From contig NC_061773.1 of the NCBI RefSeq assembly GCF_022458985.1, forward strand, positions 1,618,001 through 1,682,000: a stretch of DNA of 64,000 nucleotides, read 5' to 3'. Origin of the DNA: Mugil cephalus (lineage: Eukaryota; Chordata; Actinopteri; Mugiliformes; Mugilidae). This document shows positions 37,475-62,586 of the stretch, in pieces; position 1 is the first letter of the stretch; every line of letters starts with the position of its first letter. The translations under genes were made by a program, and so were the position numbers. A model generated the notes under the pieces. It searched no databases. It was given only the letters and a program-made list of their open reading frames with translations, and was not told the origin of the DNA.

Positions 37475-38204
37475 CTAGTAATGGTACTCTTCCTCAATTT
37501 CATCTGCATCCCCAAAATGAAAGCTGAAGGCCGGCCCCTCAAAACTGTAATGGCTGTACTGGACGTCCTCATACTCCACTTCCTGATCAGAGCTCCAGTA
37601 GAAGTGTGGCTCCTCCATAAAGGGACTGTCATCGTGGAAGTCATGGAGGAAGTCTGAGTAACTGAAGTGGAAGTTTGCCTCGTGCACATCGTCGGGCTCT
37701 TCGACAGAGGCCTCATTGTTTAGGAAAGCTTCGTGGCCCACGCTGTCATACAGCCTCCTCCTCTCCTTGTTGGAGAGCACGGTGTAGGCTGAGGAGGACA
37801 GGAGAAAAACACGGGGAAAAGGAGACAAGGTTAACTGTGGTAAACACATCTAAAACTAATGCAGTAGGGTGTTCCTAGAATAAGTCTAAAGAACTAGACT
37901 AGACTAAAGCCGTTTATTGACTGTTGTGGAGGCACAACATAATAATAATAATAATTATTATTATTTTTTTACCTTCAGTAATGTCCCTAAAAGTCTCCTC
38001 TGCATCGACGCTCTTGTTCTTATCAGGGTGGTACTTCATGGCCAGCTTGCGGAAAGCCTTTTTTATCTGGTTGTCCGTTGCTGTTGTCTCAACACCGAGA
38101 GTGTCGTAGTAGTTTGTGTGGGAGGCTGCAGGCAGTGCTCCACACAGGCACAGCAGGAGCACCACGCTGGCCCACAACCAGCTGGAAGCACCTTGCGCTG
38201 ACAT
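37475..38204 (-). CDS. dnajb9: DNAJB9/ERdj4-like ER-lumen J-domain protein, 2 exons
   Basis: Exons 38204-37973 and 37788-37475 join in frame to 181 aa. Residues 1 to about 28 are a hydrophobic signal peptide. Residues about 31-97 are a complete J domain with the HPD motif (KYHPDKN) that stimulates Hsp70 ATPase, here presumably the ER Hsp70 BiP. After the J domain comes GHEAF, then an aromatic/acidic tail ([13 protein letters not shown]) like the region after the J domain of DNAJB9, ending EEEYHY. At 181 aa it is about 40 residues shorter than mammalian DNAJB9; the conserved C-terminal part of the family is missing and there is no KDEL-type signal. DNAJB9 assists ER-associated degradation and represses IRE1 through BiP. 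It could be a short paralogue and not the direct orthologue. It is transcribed away from zc3h10. Confidence 0.8.
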
Positions 38205-39335: not shown

Positions 39336-42252
39336 ATGCCTGACCGGGACAATTCCTACCTGTCAGGTGGTGGGAGTGGCGGTAGCCTGGGTGAAGAAGG
39401 AGGACCGGGGTCTGGTTTGGCAGTGGGCTCGGCGGAGGGCAGAGGAGGATCGGGAGGAAGCGTTGGAGGGAACGTCTCTGGCTCTGGGGGAATGGGTGGA
39501 GGAGGAGCGCTCGGTAACGGCAATGGTTGCGGTAACAGTGGAGGTGGAGGGCAAGGAGCCGGACTGGCACTGGACGGCGTCTGCAGGGACTTCATACGCA
39601 ATGTCTGCAAGAGAGGAAAGCGCTGCCGTTTCAGACATCCAGACTTCAATGAGGTGCCAGACTTGGGAGTGCAAAAGAACGAGTTCATCTTCTGCCACGA
39701 CCATCAGAATAAGGAGTGTATGCGTTCCAGCTGCCGCTTTGTCCATGGTTCTAAAGAGGATGAAGACTATTACAAGAAAACAGGAGAGCTACCTCTCAGA
39801 CTAAGAGGGAAAGTTGCAGCACGACTTGGCCTGTCCCCCATGGATCTCCCGCATAGCCGTGGGGAGGTTCCCATCTGCAGAGATTTCCTGAAGGGAGAGT
39901 GCCAGAGGGGCAATAAGTGTAAATTTAGACATGTGAAAAAAGACTACGAGTATGAACCTTCCAGGGTTGGGGTGGGTGGTGTTATGGGTCCAGGTACTAG
40001 TGGAGTGGTAAATGCTGGGGTAGGGATAGGTGGTGGAGTAGGAGTTCCCTGTGGAGGAATGCAAGGACTTGTAGGAGGTGGGGGTGGCAGTAACATGATG
40101 GGGACAGGCTGCCCCAGCTTGGGGGGTTGCAGAGATCCAGGTATCTCAGGAGTTGGGGGAGTAGGTGGAGGCGGAATAAGCGGGTGTCTGTCCTTAACCT
40201 CCTCAGGTCAGCGACGTTATGACAGGAGCACATGCTCTGTGTATGACCCTCTGCTTGAGAGTGGGCTGTTTGATCCTGGTTCCCTAGAGGCCTCTATGGA
40301 CCACACCACGCTGCAACTCAAGAGGCGCCGGTTGGAGGGCCTGCGCCTTGCAGATGGGGGTGGGCACTATGAGTTGGGAGTTCAAGCCACTTTGCCAGCT
40401 CGTCCTCTGGAGTACAGATTCCTGGAGGAAGAAAATTCCTTGCTCAGGAAGAGGGTGGAAGAATTGAAGAAGCAGGTTAGAATAAGATGTCAAACTACTT
40501 AATTATTTTCAATTGATTACAAAAAATAATTTAACAAATTTTTTAGGACTTTAGCACATAATATAAGATGATCATTTGTCCCACCGTGAGGAAATTAGCA
40601 ATGTTGCAGCAACATTGTTGAAAAGTCAACATTAAATAAATACAATAGAAAGTCAAACAACTGTAGTTCTACATATGTGGTCTCCTGAGAGCAGGATGGT
40701 TGTTGGCTCAGCAGCAGGACTGAGTGTTAATGCTCCTTCACGCGGTGAGGGTGAAGCAGTCAGCTGCTGATGGGCGCAGTGCTGTGCTGTTACAGCACCA
40801 CGGAGTGGGTGGGTTGATGGCTTTGCTTCCATCCGCCAATCACCCCACCACCTCCAAAGGCTCAACAGGGCAGCCCAGAACAGAGCCGGCCTTCTTCACC
40901 AGTCTGTTCAGTCTCTTCTTGTGTGCTGCTGAGATGTTGACACTACACCAGACCACTCCATAATACATAGCTGATGCCACCACAGTCGTAAAAAGGATGG
41001 CATGTTAAGTATTTAAAATACGCTTGATTTGTTTTTAATCAATACCCAATTAGTTGTGGTCATCATATAAGTCATATTTGACAGTATAAATCAACCAACG
41101 ACAATTATAATCTCAATTTTCAGTCATTCTACTTCAGTAAATACATTCTTTACAAACATTGAATATGATAACGACACCCTCTTAAATTAATGGCCTGTGT
41201 CATTTATGACTTTTAAAAATAAATATGTATTCAATATTTGGTTCAGTTTTTTGTGTTTTTTGAAAACCCTGAAAAAATAACTTGGGCCTTTATTTTAAGA
41301 GGGTGTTGTGTACATTAACATTTTAAAATCAACAATCAAATAATATATATTTCCAAGTGTTAGGTTTTGCTGCAGTTTTGGCCACATCTGTACAAAGCCA
41401 TGTTCTTGTTCTTATGCAGTAATGACCCTAAACAGCCAGAGATATGTCTGATCTGTTTATCTTTAAAGCAGCTTGTGATTTGGGAGGGCTGGTCTTCAGT
41501 CACCTGACAAACACACAAGTATTTAATAAAGACAAATGTACTGTGTATCATCGTAAGACACAAACAGATTCTGAGAAGTGAAAGAGTGCTGGATCATTTT
41601 GTGAATATATCTAGGTTTGATTGTTTCCATATAAAATATTTAATGGGGGCTCCCTGTATATATTTTTCCTACATCTTGAAATGTTGGTCATGTTTTTTTA
41701 CACATTCCTTTCTAAGTCATGTCTTTTTGTTTTTTCCAGGTTTCTAATCTCATTGCAACAAATGAGGTTCTCCTGGAGCAGAACGCCCAGTTCCGCAGCC
41801 AGGCCAAGGTGATGACGTTGTCTTCCACCCCCGCACCCACTGAGCAGAGTCTGGCGCCTCCCGTAGGGGCAGTCAGTTCCTACAATCATGGCATTGCCCA
41901 GACCCACACCACCCTGAGCAGCGCTGGACTGCAGCCTCGGCCTGTCACTCAGCAGGACCTGGTAGCTCCCACCGGTGCCCCAGCAGCCCCCCCAGCCAAC
42001 ACAGCCCCTCCCACAGCTCCCCCGCCTCATCTCAACCCAGAGATTACCCCCCTCTCAGCTGCCCTTGCACAGACAATTGCCCAGGGAATGGCGCCTCCTG
42101 TTTCTATGGCACCGGTGGCTGTATCTGTGGCACCGGTTGCAGTGTCCATGACGCAGCCTCTGCCAGGCATCACCATGAGTCACGCCACCACCCCGATGGT
42201 GTCGTACCCCATTGCGAGTCAAAGTATGAGGATCACGACTCTGCCTCACTGA
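39336..42252 (+). CDS. zc3h10: Zinc finger CCCH-type containing 10, 2 coding exons
   Basis: Exons 39336-40475 and 41740-42252 (GT-AG intron) give 550 aa. The start has a good context (gcgccATGcc) and begins MPDRD as in mammalian ZC3H10. A Gly/Ser-rich N-terminus (about 8-78) precedes three CCCH fingers: C83-C91-C97-H101, C120-C128-C133-H137 and C181-C189-C195-H199. Then comes a long Gly-rich linker (about 214-296), a leucine-rich coiled coil (EENSLLRKRVEELKKQ, continuing VSNLIATNEVLLEQNAQFR across the splice), and a Pro/Ala/Met-rich tail ending SQSMRITTLPH. The fingers, coiled coil and tail match the mammalian family closely. The roughly 115 extra residues lie mostly in the two Gly-rich segments. 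ZC3H10 is an RNA-binding protein linked to mitochondrial gene regulation in mammals. The intron cuts the coiled coil. Confidence 0.95.
40653..40990 (-). mobile_element. LINE reverse-transcriptase C-terminal fragment in zc3h10 intron
   Basis: The minus strand encodes TVVASAMYYGVVWCSVNIS, then KKRLNRLVKKAGSVLGCP and VEPLEVVG before a stop. This is the usual end of the RT-thumb region in Rex1/CR1/L2-type LINEs ('RLNKLI+KAGSVLG.PLD'). Flanking sequence continues in broken frames. It is a 5'-truncated dead copy. Confidence 0.65.
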
Positions 42253-43525: not shown

Positions 43526-46500
43526 ATGCAGAGTGAGAAATCCGAGCCGACAGAAATCAAGGGCGCCGAGCGTCTGAGCAGCGGTGAGGCCGAGAAGAAA
43601 GCGCTGGTCGTGCAGCCACAAGCTTCCAAAACCAAGGGGATAAGCGCGGTCGCGGTGCTCTGGACGTTTGGGAAATGCCTGGGCGCCCTGCTCCCCGTCT
43701 ACCTGGCCGGCTACTACCGGGTCAGCACCAGCCTCCTGGTATGTGGCATGATGGTCTACACGGGATGGAAACATGCCCGAGAAGCCAAGGAGGCGCGTCT
43801 CAAGTCAGCCATACAGCTGATGGACAACGAGGAGGAGTTCATGTCAAGGAAAGTGTCCAAAATCAAGAGGGACCTTCCCGCATGGGTGAGAGGAGACTGC
43901 ACAGCTATCACAGCAGTTATTCTATCATTAAAAATATCTTCATATACTAATACACTAGTATTCTTCTTGAAAACACTTTGACCTAGAGTAACCTCACGAT
44001 ATATACAGTAGTGTATCATGATATCATTCAGAGGATTTGAACAAACAAAAACTATAAAACCGGTAAATGTAGATCCTCATTAATACATGCAACCAGGTGT
44101 GCATCTATGTATTTTCCATCCTACACTCTGTCCCTCCACAGTTTTCATTTGCAAAGTTTGCTGTGCATGCATTTGGATTTCAAGATCAAACTTGTCCAAA
44201 AGCACATGAGTCGATTCTTAGTGCACAAACAATGAAAACATTTAAGCCTTCCAGACTTTGTGCAGCTGTAACCTAAGGTGACTGGAAAATGTAGTCCTGT
44301 AGGCTATTCATGCTTTCGTGTCTGTATGCAAAATGGTGGTCCTGTAAACCCACATGTGCAAATGTGTTTTGACATATACAGACAATGTTTTCAACTCAGA
44401 ACATTTGGCCCCACCCAAATGAGGTTCCCGAGGCTTTCTATTTCAGTCAGTGATTGCGTGTCTAAACAGAAGACACACGTCTCCTCACTGAGATATGTAA
44501 GGACTGTCTCTGAACCTGTTAAAATATGAATGGAGTCAACATTTCAAACACTTTTAATACAAAAGTACAAAAGAATCTACATATACCTTGACTTTAATCC
44601 AGAGTGAAATCATGTGATATTTGACTAGAAACCTGTTTTATCCACACTTTCCAAGTTTCCTTTTGAAAAACCTAATGAAAGAACATCAACAATGTTACTG
44701 CTAACTTTTCCAGAACTGCATCCTTTATGACTGAGTCACTTCCTTATCCTGTTGTGTGTTTACCAGGATCTTTATTCAATTTAAGTACGTGCTTGCATTG
44801 TGTATCTTTCCCTCAGGTGAACTTTCCAGATGTTGAGAAGGTTGAGTGGCTGAATAAGGTAAACTATCATATGTGCTTTAATGTTTTGCTTCATCTTTTC
44901 ATCTGCATGACTGTCCATTCTTCCTGAAGCTCAGCAAACACATGTCTGCCCATTCAATAGCCCAGCTGTTGTGCCGAGTGACACTTGTTGGTGTATGTTA
45001 GTAGCTGGTGCTGGTTGATAGACAGTAGTGTTGGTGTTGCAATATTCCAGTAAAGGCCACACCCTCATAAGTGTATCTGCAGATAGCAAGCCCAGTGCCA
45101 AAGCACTCAAACCTCTCAAGGTAGAAGATATACATAAACATAAAAGAGTAACTTCAGAACTAAAAGACACGTGCTCCTGGTGATGTAACTCTAAGACCAG
45201 ACCTAGTCCAAGAGAAAACAAGGCTAATTCTATTTGCCCACATGTGGGAAAATAGAATTGTCATTGTTATGTGGGTGAGCACTAATACTCTACACATGCC
45301 CCTTGAATGTCCATTTAAAGGGTTCTTTGTGAAAGCAGCTCTTTTCTTACATGTGCTCATTTAGCACCACATCTAGGAATGTCTCAACTTTTCCATTTCG
45401 TCGCAGGCGACCCGGCTGAAAAGGAAGGGGTGGGGGGTGGGGGAGGAGTTGCTCAGTCCCCGAAACTAAATAAAACTGCAGCTATCACCCCGCCCCTACC
45501 TTCTCCAATCTTCTTGCCTGGAGAAAAGCCACTAACAACAGAAATAAAAATGTTCATGCAAACCACGAGATCTGAGACCAGAGAGCAAACAAAGTGGAGA
45601 TTTGAGATCGGCTACTGGAGGGGAGGGGGGGGAGTAGGTCAGCAGATTCCCTGATTACTCGAGCTTCGTCCTCCACAAGAGCAGGCATCTGATGACTCAC
45701 TCCCCACTTACGCCAGACTGTGACCACTATAACCAACTTTGGGGTTTTTCACGAGCACACAAACAGAAGTGGCCTCTGCTTTCACATTCTTTCCTAGGGA
45801 GAATGGACAGAAGGCCGAATAAGTTTGCAGTCTTAGCATTAATAGTCTGTAAAAAGTGTAAGAAAGAACACTGCTACTGTACACGTAGAGCACAGAATTC
45901 CCTATGTAATACAGCAAATAAGATCCCAGACAGCTGAAGAAGCTCGGCTCTCTCCAGCTGTCTCTGTCATTCTCCTCGTACTGCTTATGGAATCCACGGC
46001 ATCTGATGTAGTTTTGCTGCTAAATAGCCAATATGCCAAAGTTTTCTGTAAGTTCTGTTCCTTACAAATAAAAGAATGTTGTCCACGATGGTCCAACAGG
46101 TATTACAGCAGGTGTGGCCCTTTGTTGGCCAGTACCTCGAGAAGCTGCTGGTAGAGACCATCGCCCCATCTATCCGGGCATCGAGCACCCACCTACAGAC
46201 TCTCAGCTTCACCAAGGTGGACATGGGTGACAAGGTGATGGTCACTGAGAGCTTAACTATGCTATAACACTGCCAAAGCCCTGCTGAAGCACATCAATGC
46301 AAACCAATGTACTTTCTGTTCATTTCAGGCCATGAAGGTTGTAGGGATCAAGGCCCACACAGAGAATGACAAGGGGCAAGTCCTGCTAGATCTGTATATC
46401 AGGTGACCATTTATTCTTTGCTTTTTTGAGACACATCTTAAACATCTGCCAAGTGTTTTATTTTTGTAGATGACATTTATATTCGTGTATCCTCAGCTAC

Positions 46501-49500
46501 GTTGGAAACGTGGAAATCAACGTTGAAGTGAAAAGGTACTTCTGCAAAGCTGGAGTCAAAGGAATACAGGTGTGTCCTGATGTTAGCTTATAACGTCTTA
46601 AACATGGTTAAATCTTGAGGATTAAATGAAATGCTCTGCCTCATTTCACAGACATACTTTGTGTGTGTCTCTGTCTTTAGCTACATGGGATGATGCGGGT
46701 GATTCTGGAGCCTCTGATTGGAGATGTACCCATAGTGGGTGCAGTCACAATGTTTTTCATCCGTCGGCCTGTAGGTCCATCCACACTCACCTCTATTTGT
46801 CCTTTTCTTGTTAACCCTCTCAACCCCCACTCCCGCTACTATCAAGTGTCCCAGTATTGCCTCGTATGCTTTTTATTCTATTGATTTCTCAACCGTCCTT
46901 ATTGATTTGCTGTACATTCTTCTGTCTTATCTCCTCCCAGAAACTAGACATCAACTGGACTGGCCTGACTAATTTGTTGGACGTTCCTGGACTGAAGTGA
47001 GTCATGCTCAAATAGCACTTAGCTAACACAGAAAAGTAACCATTTTAATGCTTTATACAGTAAATATTAAAGTAGATCCACTATTTCCTCTGAAAATGTT
47101 ACCTTTGTTACAGTGTCATGTCCGACAGTATGATTATGGATGCCATTGCCTCTTTCTTGGTGCTGCCCAACCGCCTGGTCATCCCTCTGGTTCCTGGCTT
47201 GCATGTGGCCCACCTGCGCTCTCCTTTGCCCAGGGTGAAGATTCAGTGTTCTCTTTGCAGATTGAGAATATCACATTAGTTCCCAAGCTCAGAAAGCAAC
47301 TCCCTTTTTTGCATCAGGGTGTGGTTCGAATCCACCTCCTCGAGGCGCAGCAGCTAGCTGCCAAGGACAACTATGTGAAAGGGGTCATGGCTGGCTTGTC
47401 CGACCCGTATGCCATTCTGAGGGTGGGCCCTCAGACCTTCACCTCCCAACACATCGACAACACAGACTCTCCCAAGTGGGGGGAGATGTACGAGGTGAGG
47501 AGGAAGGAGAATTTCAAATTCGAGGCATCATCCCACTGCTGTGTTTTGTCACTAACGTGTATAATATCATTTAGATTTGACTGTTATCGTGCTGATAGGA
47601 AATCATTTGTCATTCATGAGGCCAAAAACATATTCCCTACATACTCCTCAGTCAGTCTTCATGCCCGTATGTGTGTCCTGTACATCAGGTTATAGTCCAT
47701 GAAGTGCCTGGTCAAGAGCTGGAGGTGGAGGTATATGACAAAGACCCAGACCAGGATGATTTCCTGGGCAGGTACATGCACATAATTCACGTCTATTGTG
47801 TCTTACATTTTTCACTTTTCACCTGTCACTCGTCACCTTTCACAAAAAAGATTGTAATGTTAATAATATTTTTTGTTACAGAGTTGCTTCAGAATCTGAT
47901 TTCTGTGCTGATGACCGTCTTTATCTTCATCGCTACATTTGCTCTTTTATTTTCTAACAATTCTCCTCCATACAGGACCAAACTGGATTTGGGCATTGTG
48001 AAGAAATCCATCGTTGTGGATGATGTAAGTGAAAAGCCGTTATCATCTTAGCCACAGATTAGAACATATTTTTAACCTTAAATTTGTGTCTGTGGTGTTT
48101 TCCCAGTGGTTCACTTTGAAGGATACTCCATCTGGACGTATTCATTTCAAACTGGAGTGGTTGGCTTTGCTGCCGAACACTGATCGACTTGAGCAGGTTA
48201 GAGTCTCACAATTTAAGAGTAAAATTATATGATAATTATATGGTATTATGGTTGTTGTTGTTGTTATGTGTTGATCTGCAGTCTTTTTAACAGTAAGCTT
48301 AAAAACTAAATGTCTATCTGCAATTCTGGTCCTAGATCCTAAAGAGGAATGAAAGTGTCACCACGAAGACTGCCGATCCCCCTTCTTCAGCCATCTTGGT
48401 TGTATATCTGGACAAGGCTGAGGCGCTTCCTGTGAGTCAAATATCTACCCTCACTGTGCCCACATTCGTGCTTCACTCAGAGCTGCATCCTGTCTGTGGT
48501 TAAACTGCCATCCGTTTCTCTTTTTTGTTGCCTTGGGCTCCAACCCCATTCACTCTAAAGCCCTGTAGATACATCTATCTAACTTTAAGTAAGCTAGTCA
48601 AACACAAATTTCCTACTGTTCTCATTTCCCCTGGTCATATCAAACAAAAAAGGGAATGGCAGTTACAGAAGCGCTGGTGTGAAACCCAATGCTTGTGGTT
48701 TTTAACTGTATAGATTTATACTTCCTGATTGTGCCAAGCAGTGTGGCGCTTCCTTTTAGCTATTTGTGCCGTTGCTATGGTAACCTTGTATACACCATTA
48801 TTCACATCAGCCTCGTGTTGTCAGAATGGCAGATAAGTCTGTTTATCGCTCAGCTCTTGGTTACGGAACGTCATAGCTCGCATGCCTCATCGCGTGTTCA
48901 TGTTTGTCTCTTAGATGAAGAAGGGAAATAAAGAACCCAATCCTATGGTGCAGTTGTCTGTGCAGGACATCACTAGAGAGAGCAAGGTATTTGCAAGCCA
49001 ATTAAAATACTGTAGATGTTTTCAGTTATGTCTTTTTGTAAATGCATGATTCTTGTCTTTAGACTTGTTATACAACAGTGAACCCAGAATGGGAGGACGC
49101 TTTCACCTTCTTCATCCAAGATCCTCACAAGCAGGACATAGACATTCAGGTAACAGCCCACTCGGTGAAGTACTACTTGCTAAAATGAGTGTGTGTTCCA
49201 CAATCTTGATCACTGCTGTTGTTTTGGCTTTACTTGGGTTAGGTGAAAGATGCTGACCGTGTGCAGACGTTGGGCAGTCTGACCATCCCTTTGTCCCGTC
49301 TGCTGTCGAATGCCAATCTCTCTCTGGACCAGTGGTTCCAGCTGGACAACTCGGGACCAGCCAGTCGCATCTATATAAACACAGTTCTCAGGGTAAACAG
49401 CAAATTTAGAGAAATAGATAGATGGTGCTCCATTGTCTGTCTATTAAGAGAATAATTATATGAACAAAAGGGTATAATGATAGGCTTAAACTGGAGTTTT

Positions 49501-52500
49501 GGTCTTTACTCCTCATCTGCCACTTCAACATAGGTCCTGTGGTTAGACGAGGAGCGAATTTCATCTGATGAGTCGTCTAATGTGGCAGCTGGATTGTCCA
49601 AGCAGCTGTCCCAGCACTCCTCTCCTCATCCTAGCTTCGCCACAGAGGTAAAACGGAGGACATATTTCGAAACATCTAAGCTTCTCATACATGCTTTGTT
49701 TGTTATAAGCACAGCTGTTATAAGCAAGTGTGTAATGTGACTTTATTTTTAATGAATGGTTTCAGGGGCTACTCCGCATTCACCTGTTGGCAGGACAGAA
49801 TCTGGTTCCAAAAGATAACCTGATGGGAGGGATGGTGAAAGGCAAGAGCGACCCATACGTCAAGATCAATATTGGGGGCGAAACATTCACAAGTCACGTT
49901 ATCAAGAGCAATCTCAACCCCACCTGGAATGAGATGTATGAGGTAAAAAAATGCTGTGAAATGTAAAAGCAGGATTTGACAGTTTAGTGGTCTGGGGTGC
50001 TTTTTTTTTTCTTTATTGGTTTTATTTATTTGTCCAACTGTTTATGTTTTTTTTCCATTTTTCTTTGAAGGGGTTACGCTTTGAATATTGATCCGTGTGC
50101 TGCGTTGTATTGGACATCTATCTTTTTTGAGAATGATAAAAATATGTGAAACAAATAATGTCAGGTCTTCTGAAATGTTTTGCCGTGTTTGCCACACAGG
50201 TGATTTTAACCCAGCTGCCAGGACAGGAGCTGCATGTTGAGGTGTTTGATAAAGACATGGACATGAAGGATGACTTCATGGGCAGGTAACTGTGTGTCAT
50301 TTAATTATCACATATGCTGTATGTACTCTAGATGATGTATCCTAATCTAATTTTCGTGACAAACAGGCTGAAGATTAGTCTGAAGGACATCATTGACTCC
50401 CAGTACACTGATCAGGTGGGCAGGAGATACATTTCTGACACTCATATCTATGAATGCATCTTAGTCAGCCAGAACACTCTCAGACATTTAAAAAAAATGT
50501 TTTCTACTACTTTCTCAGTGGTACACTCTCAGTGATGTGAAGTCTGGTCGACTTCACATGGTACTGGAGTGGGTTCCTACATCATCAGAGCCAGACAGAC
50601 TGGATCAGGTCAGTGGTTTTAAAATCAAGTCATGCATAAAAGGATACTTTGAGGAGATTTGATTCATATACTTTCCGGTTCTTTCCTCCATCTATAGGTT
50701 CTTCACTTCCACTCTAGACAGTCCTACCAGAATAAGGCAGTTCCCTCAGCAGGCTTACTTTTTGTGTATGTGGAGCAGGCAGATGGCTTACCAGTGAGTC
50801 TTTTAACACTGCTGTGAAGTAAAAATGAGCAGGAATAACTGTCACATTTTCAGCTCATAATGAATACCAATTTATGCCTCTGTGCAGGTGAAGAAAAGTG
50901 GAAAAGATCCAAAAGTGGGCGCGGAGATTACTCTTGGAGAAACATCTCGTAAAACTACAGTAAGCCCAGATCATTCTGCGTTTTACGAATTTTGGTGTTA
51001 AGTTGGTATTAATTCAAAGAGTGCCAAAGTACTGTATGGGTCAGTGAAGCTGGCTGATACTTGAGTCTTTCCTAAAGGTGTGTGAACGCACAACGTCTCC
51101 CCGGTGGAATGAGGCGTTCTGCTTTCTGGTTCAAGACCCCAGAGAGGATATTTTGGTTATTAAGGTGAGTGAGTGTTCGTCCATCATATGGACAGAAATA
51201 GTGGCGTTGTTCTATTGTAATTACTCGTCTGGTAACATTCATCATTGTTTTTCCAGTTCTCCCACAGCTGGACTCTGCCCATTGGCTCCCTGGTTGTTCC
51301 CATTAGAGAGCTTCTTTCTGAACCAGAGTTGGTTCTGGATCAGTGGTTCCATCTAGATGGAGCTTCACCTGAGAGTCAGGTTCTTCTGAGGACTGAACTC
51401 AAGGTAGGATTACCCCTGTCTGTTGAATGATAAACTTAAATGATAATACTTGTCTTTTAAGTTAGTGAATGAGTGTCCTTTTGGTGTATTTCAGCAATAC
51501 TGTTTCATGCGGCGGTTTACATCTGTATTGTTATATGCACATCAGCCACAACATTATGGAGAAGGCAGGAGAAGAGAATAACATTGACCGTCTTGTGACA
51601 ATACAATGTTCCGGGAAACTTTTGGACCTGGTATTCATGTGGATGTTATGCAGATGTGTACCAATAATATCAACTAATTTACAGATGCTGATTCCCAGCA
51701 AATGTCCCGGTGCAGCAGATAGGCCTAATGTCACTTCAAAACCAGACCCTCCCCCTGCTCATCGAAAGCCAGAAACAGACACAGTGCTCAGGTGAGACCG
51801 TTCAATATAGTCCATTTTTTTGTCATTATTTCTTAAAAATGTCTTTATTCTCTTTGGAACTTTTTCAAACATTTATAGCACTATTTTCACACATATTCTG
51901 GATTTTGAACATCATGCTGCTTACATGTGCCTTAAATTTACCCCTGGGTAAATAAATCTGAATTTTTGTTTTAGGTCAAGTTCAGTCGATGTTCCTCCTG
52001 TTGAGACCATTGTCCCCTCAGAGATTTTGCATGAAGATAACGTTAACGTAAAGGAAAAGACAGCTGACGTGGCTGAAGAAAAGGTGGAGGAACCACCGGC
52101 TCCCGCCATAACACAGCCTCGTCATACCTCTCCAGACATCAGCTTTGCCAGTGAGGTAACATAGTGCAAAATAGTGATCTGTAGCAGCAGTCACATCCAC
52201 CTCCCATTGAATAAAAAGCAATATAAAGCTAAATATCCACCCTCCTTACTTGCAGGGGCTGCTGAGAATCATCCTGCTGGAGGCCCAGAGTCTGGTTGCC
52301 AAAGATAACATGATGGGTGGTATGGTGAAGGGCAAGAGTGACCCCTACGCCAAGATCACTGTCGGAGAGGTTGTGTTTAAGAGTCATGTGGTCAAGGAGA
52401 ATCTCAACCCAATCTGGAATGAGATGTATGAGGTGTGTTTGAAGAGACAGATCATTTGAGACTGAAGGCTCGTCTAGGATATTATTGTTACATAGTTGCA

Positions 52501-55500
52501 CAAAGCCTTTCCTTGATGCGTTCCATCTTTATTGATACAATAGAAATCAATTTCAAATATTGCATTGATGGAGAATCAGCTGGAAATATTAAAGCGGAAA
52601 CATTTACTACCAAGTGGACCCCCACAGTTCTTGCACTCTGAGTTGTCATGGCAGTAGTTAAATTTCTGCAGAGGTGCAGGTGGTCACGGTCAGCGAATGC
52701 TTTGCACTGTTGCCGTAGCTACAGGGTTAAATTAATGTAGAAGCCTAAACTGCCTATGAGTGTTAAATTTCTCATTATCATGTTATGATGACTGTTGATG
52801 TTCCCTCAGGTGGTGCTGAGGCCTCAGTCTGGACAGGAGGTGCAGGTGGAGCTGTATGACAAAGACATGGACAAAGATGATTTCCTGGGCAGGTGAGGCC
52901 TAATTCACTTCACTTCATCTTCTGTAAATGCATGTGTTTACTAGTATGTTTAGTAGTAGTGTTTACTGTATGTGATGATATTCTTTAATTTACTGTTTCT
53001 AAACTGATAATCAGTGTTGCTGCAGTTTAACAACTTAAAAACTATTTCCTGACAAAAAAAAATACAGTGGGCTGCATCAGAATTTGTTCCCTTTTTTTTG
53101 AAAGACTTTTATTCATTTAAAACATTTTATATTGTGTGCTTGACTGATGTCCTTGTCCATGTGTGCATTTTCTTCCTCAATGTTAACAGAGTCAAGATCA
53201 GCGTGGCAGATGTAATCAGTTCTCAGCTCAAAGATGAGGTTGGTATCCTGTCTATTCTGTGTCTACATGTATTCCCCTGGTGTAATTTTATGCTGTGATT
53301 CAGTGAATGAACACCTCTGTTCCAGTGGTACACGTTGAATGATGTGAAGTCCGGTCGTGTCCGTCTGATACTGGAGTGGGTTCCGGCTGTGTCCCATAAT
53401 GACACCTTGGACCAAGTCAGTGCAATTTATATCGTTTGCTAAGGTTTCTTCTCTTATTCATTTAGAATAGTCATTCCTTCCCCCACAACTGCATCATTCT
53501 CCTTTTGTGCTGATTCACGGCCCTCATATCACTGCTGAGTCACTCTAATGTCCTTTTCATTGGACTCTTTGCTGCAGGTGATGCAGCTGCGGCGTCTCCA
53601 GTCCTACCAGAACAAAGCTGTTCCCTCTGCAGCACTGCTTTTTGTTTATGTAGACAGAGCACACTCATTGCCTGTGAGTACCTTGTCATTTTGCGCGCTG
53701 GAGAACACTGTAATAAGCTTGTTATCGTAAAAGATAATTCTAGCATTGTAAACCTGGGCTCTATTTTCCCATCTTATTGTGTCTACATATTTAATAGGCA
53801 CCAAAATGAGTCCTTGGCTATCACCAGACGTCTGAGATGGGGCATGTGTCCACAGTCACCTTAAAGGGCTTGCTCAGATTATTTTAAGTGTCGCAGTATT
53901 ATGGAAGGGGTTGATAGAGAGCTCGCTGAGCGCTGGTAGACCACAACATTATGACTACTGACAGGAGAAGAAATAACATTGGCCATCTTCATTCATTCAT
54001 GTGGATGTTACTTAGACATGTATCACCCACCTAGACCAGACCAGACACCCCCACCCCATAGTGATGACACTCCTTGATGGCAGTAGCCATCCCCAACAGG
54101 ATGCAGCCTGACACACACACACAAAAATGGTTTAGGAACAACTCAGAAAACATGAATATCAAGCACATTTGGCCTCCAAATTCACTAGATCCCAAACTGA
54201 TCAAATATCTGTGGGATGATCCACAACCCATAGGACCCAAAGGCCCCCCACTAACAGCATCTGTTACCAGACACCACAGGACTCCTGTAGGGAGTCCTAA
54301 TATTGTGCAGGAAACAACCAGGTAACTCAACCAGGAAACTTGTGCCTTGATCAGAGTAAGAGGGAGCCTTCTGAGGAAGAGTGCAGGTTACAGAGTTGAG
54401 AAACAGAAATGTGCTGTTGTGTAAAAGGTTTAAAAGGGAAAATGGTTTTGGTTTTAAAATTGACAAAATGACACCCCACACTTTAAACTGCTTTTTGGGG
54501 CCAAAGGCAAACTTAAATTGCAGCCAGTTCTGCTACAAATGGATGACAACAATCCTGTCCATATTCTAAGACTCGCAGACGATTGTGTTTCTAAAGCCTT
54601 TTTGACTGGAATGACTATTGCCACTGAAATAGGAAGAAACACGTCACCAAAGAGCTATTCCCTGAAGAAAAGACGTTCTTAAAGAAACCTGCTGCTGACA
54701 GAGGGGAGGAAATGAGTTTGAAGCAAAACAACAGACTACCTGTGTTGTAAGCAATTCCATAATGTTGTTAGACGCTCACAATCTCAGCCTGTGAGAGAAA
54801 TAAATTGCACTCTAAGGGGAATGTGGACAAATAGCTCATTTGATTAGATAGCGGTTTACTGGTTCCTCTTTATAGCATCATTCTTGTTCATTATTAAACC
54901 AGTTCCAAACATTGTTGTCCCTAAAATAGATGTAAAAGTAACGGCTAGGTTTATGGGTAGAAGGAAATAGAAAAACTGATTGTTACTTGCTGTTAGCTGA
55001 GCAACAATCATTGTTTTTGAATGTCATGACGCAAAATGTGAATCACTTTTTTTTTTTTTAGTATGAATACAAAACCATACACATAATGATGTGTGTCTTC
55101 CTGTGTCCAGTTTAAGAAAAGTGGAAAGGAGCCTAAGGCTGGAGCAGAGCTTGTGTTTGGTGGTACATCCTACAAAACCAAGGTATGGAGAAAAAAAAAA
55201 CTATTCACTATGGCAATTTTGGGCTGCAATTAGTATTTATTATTATCATCATAATCTGTTATTTTTTGGATTATTAGTCTCTGTCACAACTAGGAGGTAA
55301 TCTGTTGCTTGTGTGGGAGTAATTGAATAATATATGCTGCTGTGAATATTTCAAAATTCACACTTTGGCTCCCCCCAGTGGTAGTATCTCAAAAACACGG
55401 GTTTGGCAAGAATGCATAATACTGTAACCCTTTATAGTGTTCAAGAAGTACAAAAAATAAAGTATATCCTTGTTATTTAATGACAACATCCATTCAATAA

Positions 55501-58500
55501 CCTCCTCTACCCCTCTGCCCTGTGAAGGTATGTGATCGCTCCAGGTCACCCCAGTGGAACGAGGCGTTTCATTTCTTGGTCCATGACCCTAGAGAGGAGA
55601 TGCTCATACTGAAGGTGACCATCGAATGTCTCACAATATTTAATAAATAGCATTCAACGACAGGATCACCCCAGCTGACATTATATACCTGTGCCTTTGT
55701 GTCTGTAGCTGTCCAGTGCATGGGATCAGCCAATGGGATCACTGGTAGTTCCCGTGCGAGAGCTACTCTCTGAACCGCAGCTGGTCCTGGACCAGTGGAT
55801 GCATCTGGATGGAGCCTTGCCTGAAAGTGAGATTCTCCTGAGGGCTGAACTCAAGGTATGACAGTATATGCACACACACACACGCAAAGAGGCTTTGAGC
55901 CATTGTAAGTGAAAATACAGAAACCCAACTGGTAATTTATTGTTGGTAGATTCTTGACTCAAGGATGACTGAAGCGCCACAGCCAACTGCAACGGAACCA
56001 AAGAAAGAGGAGATGATCACCACCACTACAAAGACACTCAAAGCAGCGAGTGAAGAGCCAAAAATCTCCGAGTTGCCAGAGCATGAGTGAGTTGTTTGTG
56101 TAGATTTCAGTAGTCTAATACAAAAACTGTGAAAATTGTTCCCTCACATTTTAAACAGAAACAAATACTTAAGTTTCTGTGCATGAGTGAAGGATTTATA
56201 GTCAAGTGAAGCTGGAGAAATTGTCTAGTTAGTTCATGTCCTGTCTGGCTGTCATGTTTCGTAAGAGCAGTTTGTGTTTTCAGGTCTGTTGCAGTGTCAA
56301 AACAACCTGAAGCACCAGAAGCAGATCCTGCACCAGCCACAGAAAAGACAACCGCTGCTGAACCAGCTGCCACTCAAACTACACTTGATATGATCCCTGC
56401 TGCTGCTGCAGTGAGTCACGTCATATAAAATTCAAGTTGTCATTATATCCAGGCTATTTTCACCTTCTTAACTTGTATGTTTCTGGGTTTTGTTTCAGCT
56501 GGTGGAAGAATCAACAGGTGCAGACGGGGATTTCACCCAGCAACACACAGCTGGTAGAGAAGACTTTGATCTGCTGCAAAAAAAGAGGTGAGCTCAGCAT
56601 CACAATGAATACAGTCACATTCGTTTTGGCTTAAACTAAATAGTGAATTGGAAAGTCATTCGTGCAATAACTCTGTGTCTTTGTGTGTGTGAATGTAGCG
56701 CTGGTTTAGATGATCTGGCTCACGCCACAGTGACTGGTCTACCTGCTGACACTGTGAAGCCAGCAGAAATCACAGAAGTACCCAAAGCGAGCCAAGTTCT
56801 TCCACCACATACAACCCCGAGCCAGGACTTTGGTAAAGAGGTGAGTTTGGTTATAAGCAGAAACTGAAAATTTAAACAACTGAGCAGTGAGGATTGTTGT
56901 GGCTATTTATTTTCAAATCTTGCATATCTGCAACCCCTGCCAACTCTCTGGCAAAGTAAATATTAAATGGGTGTTTTACATCACTAATACTTAGAAATAC
57001 CTTGAAAGAGTAATGTTTCAAAATGCCTAGGGTCCATCGGAGCTGTGTGTGTGATAATGTGTCATTTTATTTCCCAGTCATTCCATGATGATTAGTACTG
57101 ATGCACTGATGCTGCTGACCTATCATGTGGCTCATGTGGCCCACAGGGATGTTTTTTTTCCAATCACCATGAATGTTCCACTTCCTCTTGTTTAAAAATA
57201 TCAAGTTGTGCCGGGGTGATTCCAGCTTCCAGCTTTTTGTGGATCACGGTGAACCTCTGAATATGCTTAGCCTGTGAAAAAGAAGGATTTCCAGAAGTGC
57301 AAAATAAAACAGGATTTAGAATTGACTCTCAAGACGTCTAACAAACGGTATAGTCCAGGCTCATAATGTGTTTCCAAAGGCAGTCAGTACCACAAGGACA
57401 AGAGGCCTCATTATATTAGCTGGTTTGAAATTTGCTCAGTAGCTTCACAATACCAAGTAACATACACTGATCAAGCATAACATTATGATCAACTTCCTAA
57501 GATGTGCAGGGAGGCCAGGTCAACACCTTGTGTTGTTCTTCATGTTTTTTGAGTTGTTCCTAAACCGTTTTTGTGCATCTGTGCCTGGACTAGGAGAGTG
57601 CTACATGTCTAAATAACATCCACATGAATATCAGGCCCAAAGTTTTCCCAGCAGAACACTCAGCCGTCACAAAATTGTTAGACAGTGTTATTTTCTTCTC
57701 CTCTCAGTGGTCTTAATGTTGTGACCTATCGGTGTCATACTCTAGCAGTTCCTGTATATTTTTAAACACTCCTGTCTTCCTCCTGATAGGGGCTGCTCAG
57801 GATTCACCTGCTGGAAGCCCAGAATCTGGTTGCGAAGGACAACCTGATGGGCGGCATGGTGAAGGGAAAGAGCGACCCCTATGTGAAGATCAACGTAGGC
57901 GGGGTGAACTTTAAGAGTCATGTTATCAAAGAGAATCTGAACCCAACATGGAACGAAATGTATGAGGTATGAAGTTTTTACCTGAACCTGTTGTTTATTG
58001 TCTGGATATCACTGCATTCACATCATTGTAATATTTGTATATGTTTTTCTAACAGGTAGTCCTGAGGGGGCACAGCGTTCAGGAGATCAAGCTTGAAGCG
58101 TTTGATAAGGATTTAGATTCTGATGACTTCCTAGGAAGGTGTGTGTCATGTGCATATACATTACTGTACATCAGTCGTCCTCTCTGATCTAGAAAAGACA
58201 GGCTGCAAAGGTCAAATGCACCTTAGGCAATTTTGAAGCACAAAGAATTAATGCAAAATGTTTTCATGATGCTAAAGAATATTTTATTTCAGGAGGCAGC
58301 AATTATCTCAGGACCAGCAAAAAGAAAATATTTGCGCTTTGGCTCATGGAGGAAAATGAATCTGGGTAGCTTCTTTAAAACAATAAGTTCACATCCGTTT
58401 AAAATATAAGTCCAGTTGTGAAAAAGTTCTGCAGCTGCCAAACTTGAATACAATATGTACATTTTCCTTTCTATGTGGATTTGATGCGTTTTTATTTTAG

Positions 58501-61500
58501 TAGTTGTTTTATCGTTTTTATTTAAGTTAGCCTTTCCTTATTCAGTTTGTAATATTGTTAGAGAAAGTGTTTTATAAATAAATGTTATTGCAGTGGAAGT
58601 ATGGATAATAAGTACTAATAAACAGGAGACAGTTGCAAAAAAGGCCTGTAAAAGGTGCTTCAAAAATAAATAAATAAATAAAAATAAATAGCTCCTCTAA
58701 TATGTATATTGTCAAAAGTAAACTTCCCTCATAAGAAGTTAAAGCCTTGTTGTTGCTGTTGTTGTTTACTGCCTGTTATTATGTCCCCAGATTCAGCGTT
58801 AAGTTAAATGAGGTCATCAGATCACAGTACACAGATCAGGTTAGTCAACAACTCATAATCTCAAGTTGCACCATGTGATTTCTGAACTCTGTGCTGTGCT
58901 ATTTCCTCATATGAAGGGTGTGTCGCTGCTGCTCTAACCACCACTGTCTCTGTTGCAGTGGTACACTCTGAATGACGTGAAGTCTGGAAGAGTTCACTTG
59001 ATACTGGAATGGGTTCCTACAGTGTCCAGTTCAGGCAGACTCGACCAGGTTGGCCTAGTTTATTTTACCAGGCTGATTGTTTGAGATCAAAATATCTCTT
59101 TTAGAATCAAGGCCTGGCCATAACACTTAAGCCCTGATAATGCTGTTGGGTAAAATCCAATGTCTGAGTGACACTACTATTCACATTGCAACATAATTAT
59201 GAGGCCTATGTGCTCATGCTTCAACTCACAGGTGCTGCAGCTTCAGTCTCTCCAGTCCTTTCAGAACAAAGCGATTCCTTCTGCAGCTTTGCTCTTTGTT
59301 CATATCGAGGCTGCACATTCATTACCTGTAAGTGACCCACTGGATATTTACATACTGTGTCTAGTTACCAAAAAAATGATTCCCCACCACAATACATCTT
59401 GAATGCCTCTTTTTTTTACTGCACAGTTGAAGAAGAGTGGAAAAGAACCCAAAGCAGGAGCTGAGCTGGTTCTGGGGGAAACAACTTATAAAACCAAAGT
59501 GAGTCTCTCGATGCATGATGCTCTGCGTCAGCATCAGCACTGGTTTGTTGAATACGTTGTTGTACTGTAATAACTTGATTTTGACTGTACCTCTTCAGCT
59601 GTGTGAGCGCACTTCCAGTCCTCAGTGGAATGAGTCCTTCTACTTCCTGGTCCATGACCCAAAACGGCAGATGCTTGTGGTGAAGGCAAGGGACTTATTT
59701 ACATCCATTTGGTTGCAGAATCTGCAGCCGTGTTGTTCCTTATAGACCTTTGGACAGCATGCATTGATGCTTATCTGTATTTTACATGTTTTATATGACA
59801 TGTTGAATGTGAAGCACTTTGCTGCAAATGCTCTTTGCTTTTAAGGTGCTATATAAATGAAATGAACTTAAACCTTTTTCACAACAGACGTTTAGACTTC
59901 TCACACTACGAAGTCATTCAGTTTCCCAGGAACATGAAATGATAGGAAAAATCTGAAACTCTCTTACTACTGTAACTACTGTCTCCCTACTGTAACATTT
60001 TCAGACTTCTGTGGGAAAAAAGTACTTTGCATGCATGTAGGTACAGCTAACGGTAAGTAATGTTGGAGTGACACTTCCATGCTCTGTTCCTGCGTTGCAG
60101 TTATCCAGTGGTTGGGACCAGCCAATGGGATCTCTGGTGATTACCGTCAGGGAGCTGCTTGCAGAGCCACAGCTGGTCCTGGATCAGCAGTTCCATCTGG
60201 ACGGAGCGTTGCCCGACAGTCAGATCCTGCTGAGGGCTGAACTCAAGGTGAATGTTTCCGACAGAAAGACAAAAGCCATGTGTGTGTTTGTGTGTTTTAC
60301 ACCCATAGACTGTATATAAATATGCACAATGCGTCTACACTTCCTCCCGCTGGTCAAACTGACGCTAGATTCCCTGGAATAACAGTGCATCTTGTGAGTT
60401 TGGAGCTATAGTCTACACAGTATCGCCCAATAGTGGAGCCATGCGGAGCCACATTATGGACAACCCATCCACACTTCCTCCAGACTCACTCACATTTTTG
60501 TTAAATTAATGCTGTGCTCTGATCTACGTCCACCAGTTTCAAAGAAATATAGGATTCAACACTGTACTTATTTTTTCAACTCAGGATTATATTAACTGCA
60601 TAAACTGACAGAAACTGTCCCTGAAAATAATTATTTGACGTGTACTGTAGTGTTTTTGTTTAACCCAAGTCCCATCCACTAACATGGGGGGGGTGGAGCT
60701 TATGACCTATGCTGCAGCCAGACAGGGGGAGCTCTACTTGCTTTGGCTTCACTTTTGTGGAGGTGTTCTGTCGGCCATCTTTATTTACAGTCTATGTTTT
60801 CAGCTAATTAATACTTAGTTCCTTTTCTGAATTTGAATAGGTTCTGGATTCCAAAATGGTGGATATGATCAGCGCAGGGACTGTCCCCTGTGGATCTGGA
60901 AACGGGCAGGTGAAGTTATCCCTTTCGTATGCTTCGCAAGAGAGAAAGCTCACCGTCATCATCCATGCCTGCAGGTGTGTGTGCTCAGTTTTCATAAATT
61001 TCATAAATTTCCATGTGCTCACATTAGAGAGCATTTCCAGTTAAAAAAAAAACTACAGAATAAAGAAAATGTTGATGTCTCAATAGTCTCAAAAACCCCT
61101 GTGAGCAATACATGTGATGTCCTAAATTTCTTTTTTTAAACCTGTGCTTTCTTCTCTCTTCACACAGAGGACTTCTTTCACAAAGTAAGGATGGCATAGA
61201 CAGCTACGTCTCCCTCATGCTCCTTCCAGACAAAAGCAAGGCCACCAAGAGAAAGACGGCGGTTAAGAAAAAAGACCTTAACCCCGAATACAATGAAAGG
61301 TAAATGTACTATCTCTGTACTTCTGTTAAGGTTTTATTATCCTTTTATTGTCCCTCTCGTTTAGTGCTCTCCTTGTAATTGTCTTCTAAGGTTTGAGTAT
61401 GATCTGCCTGCGGAGGAGACAAGGTTCAGGTGCCTCAGTGTATCAGTGAAGAATAACTCGGCATCATTCAGGAGCAGAGACGTGATTGGACAGGTCAGTC

Positions 61501-62586
61501 TGAGGCTGTACTCCACTTGAACCTCTTTTATGGCTCACACTTATATTTGTCTGGGCGCAGTTTGCTAAGCATGCACACTGGTATTCCCAACATGAAACTA
61601 AAAGATACAAAACACACAACCTGACTGAACGTATTGAAGGTCTATATTAGGCGAACTTTGGGTTACCTAATTTCCCTTCGGGGATGAATAAAGTAATCTA
61701 TCTATCTATCTATCTATCTTACATTATGTAATCCTGGTGGTATTTTTATCAACTGAGATCTCTGAAGACATTAAAAAAATATACACCGATCAGCCGGAAC
61801 ATAAAAACCACTGACAGGAGAAGTAAAAAGCATTAACCCTCTTGTGACAACTCATTGTTCTCCTGATTAACCTTTGGACCTGGTATTCATTCATGTAGAT
61901 GTTACTTAGACATGTTCCACCCACCTAGACCAGACCAGACACCCCCACCCCATAGCAATAACACTCCTTGATGGCAGCAGTCATCCCCAGAAGGATGCAT
62001 TTTTTTTTGTCCACACAGTATTCGAGTTAATTCAGGATGTGTTCAGTGCACACTAAAGTTCAAGCTAAAGGGTTCACACTTTTCAGGCGAGCTGCAGATT
62101 TCATTTTAGTTTGACCAAACTTGAAAAGTGTGAATGCACCCCGAAGTTCTTCAACACATACACCAGCAAGTACACCAGACTAGGTGTGGTCAGCCAGGTT
62201 GCTGGAATGGTGTATTTTTGTGCATTTATTTTGTGAAGTGTATTGTTGTATGTTTTTTACTTTGAATTCATCTGACATTTCTGTTTTTTAGGCTCAGATT
62301 GAGTTGGCCCAGATTGACCTGAAGTCTGGTGTCACAGAATGGTGAGCATCACAGAGCAGACTGGACTCACTCCAGACTTTGTGGGAAAGTGCAGCACCGC
62401 ATGAAATATTTAGGATCAAAACACTTAAGCATGTGCTCAGTGACTGCAAAAACACAGCAGTTTGCTAAATGATCAATTATTGAACTGTACGTTTTTTGTT
62501 TTTTTGGCATGATTAGTTGATTAGTGATTTACACTGAACACCTGTCTGCTTATTCCAGGTTCACTCTGAGAGATGAAGCTGAATAG
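43526..62586 (+). CDS. esyt1: Extended synaptotagmin 1 with nine C2 domains, 52 coding exons
   Basis: Tethers ER to plasma membrane and moves lipids through its SMP domain, controlled by Ca2+-binding C2 domains. My model is 52 coding exons, continuous frame, 1,834 aa, stop at 62,584-62,586. Exon 1 (43526-43885, start context ccgccATG) encodes a cytosolic N-terminus and a hydrophobic hairpin (about 38-82). Exons 2-8 (44817-44858, 46100-46234, 46329-46402, 46497-46569, 46681-46770, 46941-46996, 47114-47234) encode the SMP domain (about 121-317; FPDVEKVEWLNK, FCKAGVKG, DINWTGLTNLLD). Then four paired-C2 cassettes at residues 318-585, 624-891, 988-1254 and 1420-1686, and a terminal C2 (about 1687-1834; exons 60841-60974, 61168-61299, 61391-61493, 62292-62341, 62559-62586). 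Linker exons: 49534-49647; 51685-51791 and 51975-52155; 55950-56086, 56284-56410, 56499-56587 and 56699-56840. Mammalian E-Syt1 is about 1,100 aa with five C2 domains. Confidence 0.93.
44990..45395 (-). pseudogene. Decayed partial copy of the sorting-nexin gene inside esyt1 intron 2
   Basis: Minus-strand pieces resemble three exons of the gene at 31,431-36,952, in the same order. About 45,333-45,385 reads FLDVVLNEHM then a stop (live gene: FLDVVLTEQ). About 45,165-45,220 reads SLGLGLVLELHHQEH (live gene: TLGVGLDLESRYQEA). About 45,039-45,083 reads SADTLMRVWPLLEYC, a weaker match to VRLQMLQQALVQWCE. Intron-like DNA separates the pieces, so this is a DNA-level duplicate and not a retrocopy. Stops and lost exons show it is dead. 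Confidence 0.65.
47318..49392 (+). repeat. esyt1: esyt1 paired-C2 cassette 1 (C2A-C2B)
   Basis: Eight exons: 47318-47494, 47689-47771, 47976-48024, 48107-48196, 48336-48431, 48915-48986, 49063-49149, 49243-49392 (177, 83, 49, 90, 96, 72, 87, 150 nt). C2A keeps the acidic Ca2+ pattern (AAKDNY, LSDPYA, YDKDPDQDDF). C2B lacks it (NKEPNPMVQ where SDPY would be). This is the most divergent of the four cassettes and corresponds to C2A-C2B of mammalian E-Syt1. Confidence 0.9.
49766..51403 (+). repeat. esyt1: esyt1 paired-C2 cassette 2 (C2C-C2D)
   Basis: Exons: 49766-49942, 50200-50285, 50367-50415, 50519-50608, 50698-50793, 50888-50959, 51078-51164, 51257-51403 (177, 86, 49, 90, 96, 72, 87, 147 nt). 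The first C2 reads GMVKGKSDPYVK and FDKDMDMKDDFMGR, one residue longer in Ca2+ loop 3 than the other cassettes. The second C2 has KKSGKDPKVGAE instead of SDPY. Confidence 0.9.
51538..51660. mobile_element. MITE family A fragment in esyt1 intron
   Basis: The left end 'catcagccacaacattatg' and 'gaccgtcttgtgacaataca' are recognisable, ending in 'catgtggatgtta'. It stops about 25 bp before linker exon 51,685. Confidence 0.7.
52488..52760. repeat. Interspersed repeat family B, copy 4, in esyt1 intron
   Basis: Landmarks: 'agcctttccttgatgcgttc', 'catctttattgatacaatag', 'gagaatcagctggaaatatt' and 'aatgtagaagcctaaactgc'. It lies between the first two exons of cassette 3. Confidence 0.65.
53939..54295. 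mobile_element. MITE family A in esyt1 intron
   Basis: It runs from 'gaccacaacattatgactac' through 'ccagacacccccacccca' and the CA seed to 'accagacaccacaggac', with the right terminus degraded. Confidence 0.8.
57463..57735. mobile_element. MITE family A, reverse orientation, in esyt1 intron
   Basis: It begins 'tacactgatcaagcataaca' and ends 'gttgtgacctatcggtgt'. It is internally deleted. It lies just upstream of the first exon of cassette 4. Confidence 0.8.
59686..59687 (+). other. esyt1: Non-canonical GC splice donor in esyt1
   Basis: The seventh exon of cassette 4 ends GTGGTGAAG and the intron starts gcaagg. The equivalent exons in cassettes 2 and 3 end AAG|gtgagt and AAG|gtgacc. GC-AG introns are a minor but valid class, usually with a strong donor context as here (AAG|GCAAGG). 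Confidence 0.75.
59755..59880 (+). repeat. LINE/SINE 3'-tail-like fragment
   Basis: 'tgtgaagcactttgctgcaa' followed by 'aaggtgctatataaatgaaa' is the common 3' tail shared by several fish LINEs and their SINE partners. No upstream coding part. It is inside the GC-AG intron. Confidence 0.45.
60304..60796 (+). mobile_element. Interspersed repeat family C, full-length copy in esyt1 intron
   Basis: It starts 'catagactgtatataaatat' and ends 'tttatttacagtctatg', inverted ends of about 14 bp. It shares several blocks with the copies at 30,040 and 18,596. It lies between cassette 4 and the terminal C2. Confidence 0.75.
61650..61721 (+). repeat. LINE 3' tail with (TATC)n
   Basis: 'aatttcccttcggggatgaa' and 'taaagtaatctatctatcta' form a typical fish LINE 3' end followed by a tetranucleotide run. 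Confidence 0.55.
61782..61999. mobile_element. MITE family A, 5' half, in the penultimate-side esyt1 intron
   Basis: It begins 'tacaccgatcagccggaaca' and runs through 'ccagacacccccacccca' to 'aaggatgca', then is truncated by a T run. Confidence 0.75.

Follow-up and report, generated by a model that had tools for sequence, protein, structure and literature searches.

The closest described systems to the gene studied here are the duplicated E-Syt1 genes of teleost fish. Passages of Craxton 2007 (PMC1976326) report nine C2 domains for Danio FAM62A2 and five for FAM62A1, and sections of Craxton 2010 (PMC2823689) state that fish Esyt1 was duplicated and that an internal duplication in esyt1b added four C2 domains. 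In the parts of Nonet 2012 (PMC3484663) that concern this gene, esyt1b has nine C2 domains in all teleosts examined, compared to five in mouse and in esyt1a, and is the sole four-domain increase in the zebrafish survey. Elsewhere, esyt1b is named among the top liver hub genes in excerpts of a largemouth bass stress-expression study, and the name also occurs in a coho salmon selection scan. Our search of the open-licence literature did not turn up any work on the function of the nine-C2 protein or of its extra modules.

The nine-C2 architecture is already known, having been published for teleosts years ago. We analyzed a 64-kb window of the Mugil cephalus genome (the window being the whole stretch of DNA under analysis; coordinates are window positions unless a contig is named) and conclude that its gene is almost certainly teleost esyt1b, the duplicated extended synaptotagmin 1 gene with nine C2 domains, where the putative orthology to zebrafish esyt1b rests on the architecture and on the presence of a paralogue pair. 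We assign this overall explanation a probability of about 0.93. Our correction concerning the ninth C2 domain and our evidence on how the cassettes duplicated are small additions to published knowledge.

Gene structure and domain architecture

We placed exons manually and checked each junction, which yielded a gene of 52 exons at 43,526-62,586 on the forward strand, with 5,505 nt of coding sequence and a predicted protein of 1,834 amino acids. The frame remains open across all 52 exons and the stop codon ends at 62,586. Acceptors are AG in all 51 introns, and donors are GT in 50 of the 51 and GC after exon 46; this sole GC-AG intron spans 59,686-60,100. A Pfam search of the predicted protein, a check proposed alongside the original prediction, returned one SMP domain (PF17047, residues 125-303, 264.3 bits, E = 5.4e-79) and nine C2 stretches (548.7 bits in all). 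Two further models, C2_GRDP and SMP_MUG190-like, scored above their Pfam cut-offs, but the first falls within C2 number 2 and the second within the SMP domain. An MLVIN_C match in C2 number 5 scored 26.8 bits, below its cut-off of 29.2 bits, and was treated as chance.

Exon 1 (43,526-43,885) carries the start codon and, beginning near residue 38, a putative hydrophobic segment at the N-terminus, a segment that in E-Syts forms the ER-anchor hairpin according to sections of a review (PMC7889955). Hydropathy in the 19-residue windows starting at residues 38 to 42 is 1.54-1.65, no higher than in windows within the SMP domain, which reach up to 1.72. The SMP lipid-transfer domain, supported by Pfam and by alignment with human E-Syt2 (4P42), is encoded by exons 2-8 (44,817-47,234). 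It adjoins a C2A-C2B tandem, as in E-Syts and as the 4P42 alignment covers; this tandem is cassette 1, which holds C2 numbers 1 and 2 in exons 9-16 (47,318-49,392) by the gene model and cassette comparison. Exon 17 (49,534-49,647) encodes a 38-residue linker, and exons 18-25 (49,766-51,403) form cassette 2 with C2 numbers 3 and 4, in the position of E-Syt1 C2C-C2D.

In the gene model, the remaining cassettes are separated by longer linkers. Exons 26-27 (51,685-52,155) encode 96 residues rich in P, E and V, and lead to cassette 3 with C2 numbers 5 and 6 in exons 28-35 (52,256-55,855), which by the topology tests below is an extra copy of the cassette-2 type. Exons 36-39 (55,950-56,840) encode 165 residues rich in A, T, E and P, followed by a second extra copy of the same type, cassette 4, with C2 numbers 7 and 8 in exons 40-47 (57,790-60,247), where the GC-AG intron lies. 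The gene model and Pfam agree that exons 48-52 (60,841-62,586) encode the terminal C2 number 9, in the position of E-Syt1 C2E, and the stop codon. All of these features are on the forward strand.

The four cassettes share one exon pattern. The exon lengths are 177, 83, 49, 90, 96, 72, 87 and 150 nt in cassette 1; 177, 86, 49, 90, 96, 72, 87 and 147 nt in cassette 2; and 177, 83, 49, 90, 96, 72, 87 and 147 nt in both cassettes 3 and 4. Each cassette starts and ends in phase 0. The original prediction had described an extended synaptotagmin 1 enlarged by cassette amplification, with nine C2 domains and 1,834 residues in 43,526-62,586, four tandem eight-exon cassettes of recurring exon lengths, and a frame open throughout. 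The gene model reproduces the cassettes and the single frame, Pfam agrees with it on the domains, and the two together with the cassette comparison support the enlargement, for which coincidence is no serious explanation.

Other features were observed in the window. Directly upstream of esyt1b and in the same orientation, an ORF at 39,336-40,502 (+), perhaps extending to 42,252, matches the Pfam zf-CCCH models for CCCH zinc fingers. It resembles ZC3H10, which we take to be a neighbour of human ESYT1. An ORF at 41,719-42,252 has no Pfam match and by eye may be a later exon of this zinc-finger gene, and an ORF at 37,475-37,849 (-), also without a Pfam match, resembles by eye the end of a DnaJ domain protein. 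An interspersed repeat occurs in esyt1b introns and elsewhere in the window (53,945-54,345; 61,885-61,999; 57,529-57,720, inverted; 2,442-2,859; and others). It has at least 45 matches in the genome, counted from the 40 scored of 5,138 first-look candidates, and resembles a widespread non-coding mobile element that has no connection with the cassettes. Neither Rfam nor tRNA scanning of the 64-kb window gave a match.

Origin of the additional cassettes

Protein identity between the esyt1b cassettes is 67% (2-3), 69% (2-4) and 75% (3-4), and cassette 1 is 40-42% identical to cassettes 2-4. Assemblies are known to go wrong at tandem repeats, and an assembly or haplotype duplication could in this way have made the extra cassettes. 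We give this explanation next to no weight. An artefact at esyt1b is very unlikely because cassettes 2-4 are just 67-75% identical, a difference of 25-33% in protein, and because blastn found no homology between corresponding introns of the four cassettes (28 introns, E = 1e-3); the lone match covers 20 bases and pairs two introns that do not correspond and run in opposite orientations. A protein search against the fish's own genome (635 Mb, 24 contigs; all 37 of 37 candidates scored) matched the cassette's first exon on the esyt1b contig only at this gene's four sites, and other fish have published nine-C2 genes, both of which also count against an assembly duplication.

Identity among cassettes 2-4 is 76.8-80.1% at the first codon position, 83.5-87.3% at the second and 50.2-53.2% at the third. 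This pattern argues for coding constraint since the copies arose, and by this measure cassettes 2-4 are old duplicates under purifying selection. Having most variation at third positions is at odds with cassettes 3 and 4 being decaying remnants or a separate gene fused to the first, as are the open frame over 52 exons and the single SMP domain in the Pfam search. Nothing was found in favour of the remnant or fused-gene explanation, and we consider it to have a very small chance of being correct.

The genome contains further members of the family. A protein search found E-Syt-like matches on the contig of esyt1b (C4) and on contigs C1, C18, C7 and C12. Judging from similarity and from the fish gene set in sections of Craxton 2010 (PMC2823689), the matches on C18 and C7 look like copies of esyt2 and that on C12 like esyt3. 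The matches on C1 belong to a two-cassette esyt1 paralogue at about 16,278,900-16,290,600 on the reverse strand, found by tblastn exon matches. Their order along 18 kb of the gene strand (E up to 0.01) is exons 1-17, one further cassette and then exons 48-51 of the terminal C2; exon 52 is too short for a tblastn match. Linker exons 26 and 27 gave one off-frame match with a stop and one match at the place of exon 17. The exon lengths of the two cassettes are 177, 83, 49, 90, 96, 72, 87 and 150 nt, and 177, 83, 49, 90, 96, 72, 87 and 147 nt, with AG/GT edges throughout. By this exon-match architecture, the paralogue looks like the five-C2 type, similar to published esyt1a. A gene of apparent five-C2 esyt1a type and the nine-C2 gene are found in the same genome, as expected for a teleost esyt1b.

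Comparison with this paralogue bears on how the cassettes multiplied. Cassette 1 of esyt1b groups with the paralogue's cassette 1 (68% amino acid identity), and the other three esyt1b cassettes, 2, 3 and 4, fall with cassette 2 of the paralogue, each at 66% identity. The simplest one-step route from five to nine C2 domains is a block copy of cassettes 1 and 2. We compared seven fixed topologies using AU and SH tests on three data sets (protein, codon positions 1 and 2, and all codon positions). The origin of cassettes 3 and 4 by block duplication of 1 and 2 was rejected in all three (AU P-values of at most 2.3e-5), and likeness also speaks against it, as cassettes 3 and 4 resemble cassette 2 and not cassette 1. 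Because the block copy is rejected, it seems that a cassette of type 2 must have been duplicated at least twice, barring gene conversion that rewrote cassette 3; a later conversion with cassette 2 as donor might in principle produce the same result.

The order of these duplications is less sharply defined. Cassettes 3 and 4 are probably sisters, the arrangement favoured by FastTree (one support value per data set: 0.94, 0.98 and 0.88). Writing b for an esyt1b cassette and a for a C1 paralogue cassette, the AU test rejected b2+b3 and a2+b4 with every data set but b2+b4 with a single one (P = 0.039, against 0.053-0.054 for the remaining two), while the more conservative SH test rejected none of these pairings (P-values of 0.30-0.40). 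Topologies with the paralogue's cassette 2 outside (H1) or with the b-copy cassette 2 outside (H3) were rejected in none of the three data sets, and a pairing of these two cassettes (H2) was marginally rejected by the protein data only (AU P = 0.049). The tests are compatible with the paralogue's cassette 2 having branched either before or after the first extra copy.

Since the identities are so alike (66-69%), the extra cassettes and the split between the a and b genes are probably of about the same age, an age that agrees with the phrase 'early in the teleost lineage' in sections of Nonet 2012 (PMC3484663). Exon by exon, the identity between the paralogue's cassette 2 and esyt1b cassette 2 is 80% for exon 2 and 81% for exon 4, against 61-68% for the remaining six; because of this unevenness, past gene conversion may blur the cassette tree.

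Such an age also bears on which product the gene makes. Nine C2 domains could be encodable while most transcripts are spliced to a shorter form from which cassette 3, cassette 4 or both are missing, and skipping would preserve the frame, since all four cassettes are bounded by phase 0. Yet every exon in cassettes 3 and 4 retains GT/GC-AG splice sites and both cassettes have the purifying codon-position pattern, and a rarely used stretch is not expected to keep both since early teleosts, the date given in sections of Nonet 2012 (PMC3484663). We regard a mainly shorter product as improbable.

Calcium sites and proposed function

We assigned Ca2+ ligand positions from known C2 chemistry and alignment. 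The first C2 domain of all four cassettes has both loop-1 aspartates (in K-D-x and S-D-P-Y) and, in loop 3, D-x-D and a further D, like C2A of E-Syt2. In the second C2 domain of every cassette the full aspartate set is incomplete, with remnants such as D-A-D in loop 3 of number 2 and one D in loop 1 of number 4. C2 number 9 has two aspartates in loop 1, and its loop 3 reads NNSASFRSRDVIG, without D-x-D. The original prediction of Ca2+ ligands in each odd-numbered C2 domain consequently holds for numbers 1, 3, 5 and 7, by their loop-1 and loop-3 aspartates, but not for number 9. Four of the five odd-numbered C2 domains thus look Ca2+-competent, C2 number 9 being the exception.

Studies of the mammalian protein provide the basis for a functional reading. 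According to sections of a review (PMC7889955), E-Syt1 has its anchor in the ER, a rise in cytosolic Ca2+ brings it to ER-plasma membrane contacts through C2C, its C2A has been proposed to restrain lipid transfer until Ca2+ binds, and the contact distance could fall by about 30% on Ca2+. The legend of a model figure (PMC10023780) shows C2C and C2E binding the plasma membrane.

By analogy, a putative N-terminal hairpin would hold esyt1b in the ER, the SMP dimer would move lipids, and the first Ca2+-binding C2 domain would restrain the SMP until Ca2+ rises. The C2C-type domains, numbers 3, 5 and 7, each with ligand aspartates, would then bind plasma-membrane lipid, and the last C2 domain would assist docking. 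With the extra cassettes and the 96- and 165-residue linkers, the protein would gain further points of Ca2+-triggered membrane attachment and a longer reach, resulting in more multivalent tethering. We put roughly even odds on esyt1b acting in this way, as a lipid-transfer tether between ER and plasma membrane that is gated by Ca2+ and has three modules of the C2C type. The change in gap width or Ca2+ response suggested in the original prediction is plausible.

A more speculative scenario joins this function to the gene's history. At about the time of the fish genome duplication, one copy of E-Syt1 might have tripled C2C-C2D, its Ca2+-dependent module for plasma-membrane binding, through at least two successive cassette-2 copies, rather than one block. 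The result would be a Ca2+ tether with greater cooperativity and reach, whereas the second copy stayed in the five-C2 form. We hold this scenario tentatively, at somewhat less than even odds. If true, esyt1a and esyt1b form a naturally occurring dose series in which a single lipid-transfer machine carries different numbers of C2 modules.

Comparison with known extended synaptotagmins

The human E-Syt2 structure 4P42 (SMP-C2A-C2B) aligns over chain residues 3-471 of 474 with query residues 4-470 of 472 (E = 1.8e-174), and the ligand aspartates lie at matching places in the solved structures 4P42 and 4NPJ. Compared to E-Syt2 C2AB, cassette 3 is only 38% identical (E = 2.5e-57), and E-Syt2 differs in having three C2 domains (FAM62B, in passages of PMC1976326).

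With mammalian E-Syt1 (ESYT1, FAM62A; the human gene is described in passages of PMC1976326), the M. cephalus gene shares a putative N-terminal hydrophobic region, the SMP domain, two-C2 modules and a final C2 domain; the second two-C2 module and the final C2, as in E-Syt1, are both present. Unlike the M. cephalus gene with its nine, mammalian E-Syt1 has five C2 domains and no cassettes 3 and 4, by the same passages.

The likeness is closest to teleost esyt1b, with nine C2 domains through extra two-C2 repeats and a five-C2 paralogue alongside. Fish have coexisting five-C2 and nine-C2 forms of one lipid-transfer tether, a pair that lets the number and spacing of Ca2+-binding modules be tested against contact distance and Ca2+ response. 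Within teleosts, one difference was found. Sections of Craxton 2010 (PMC2823689) state that tetraodontiforms lost one intron in the duplicated section of esyt1b, and from the order of occurrences given there we infer that the loss lies in cassette 3. In contrast, cassette 3 of M. cephalus esyt1b retains all seven of its internal introns.
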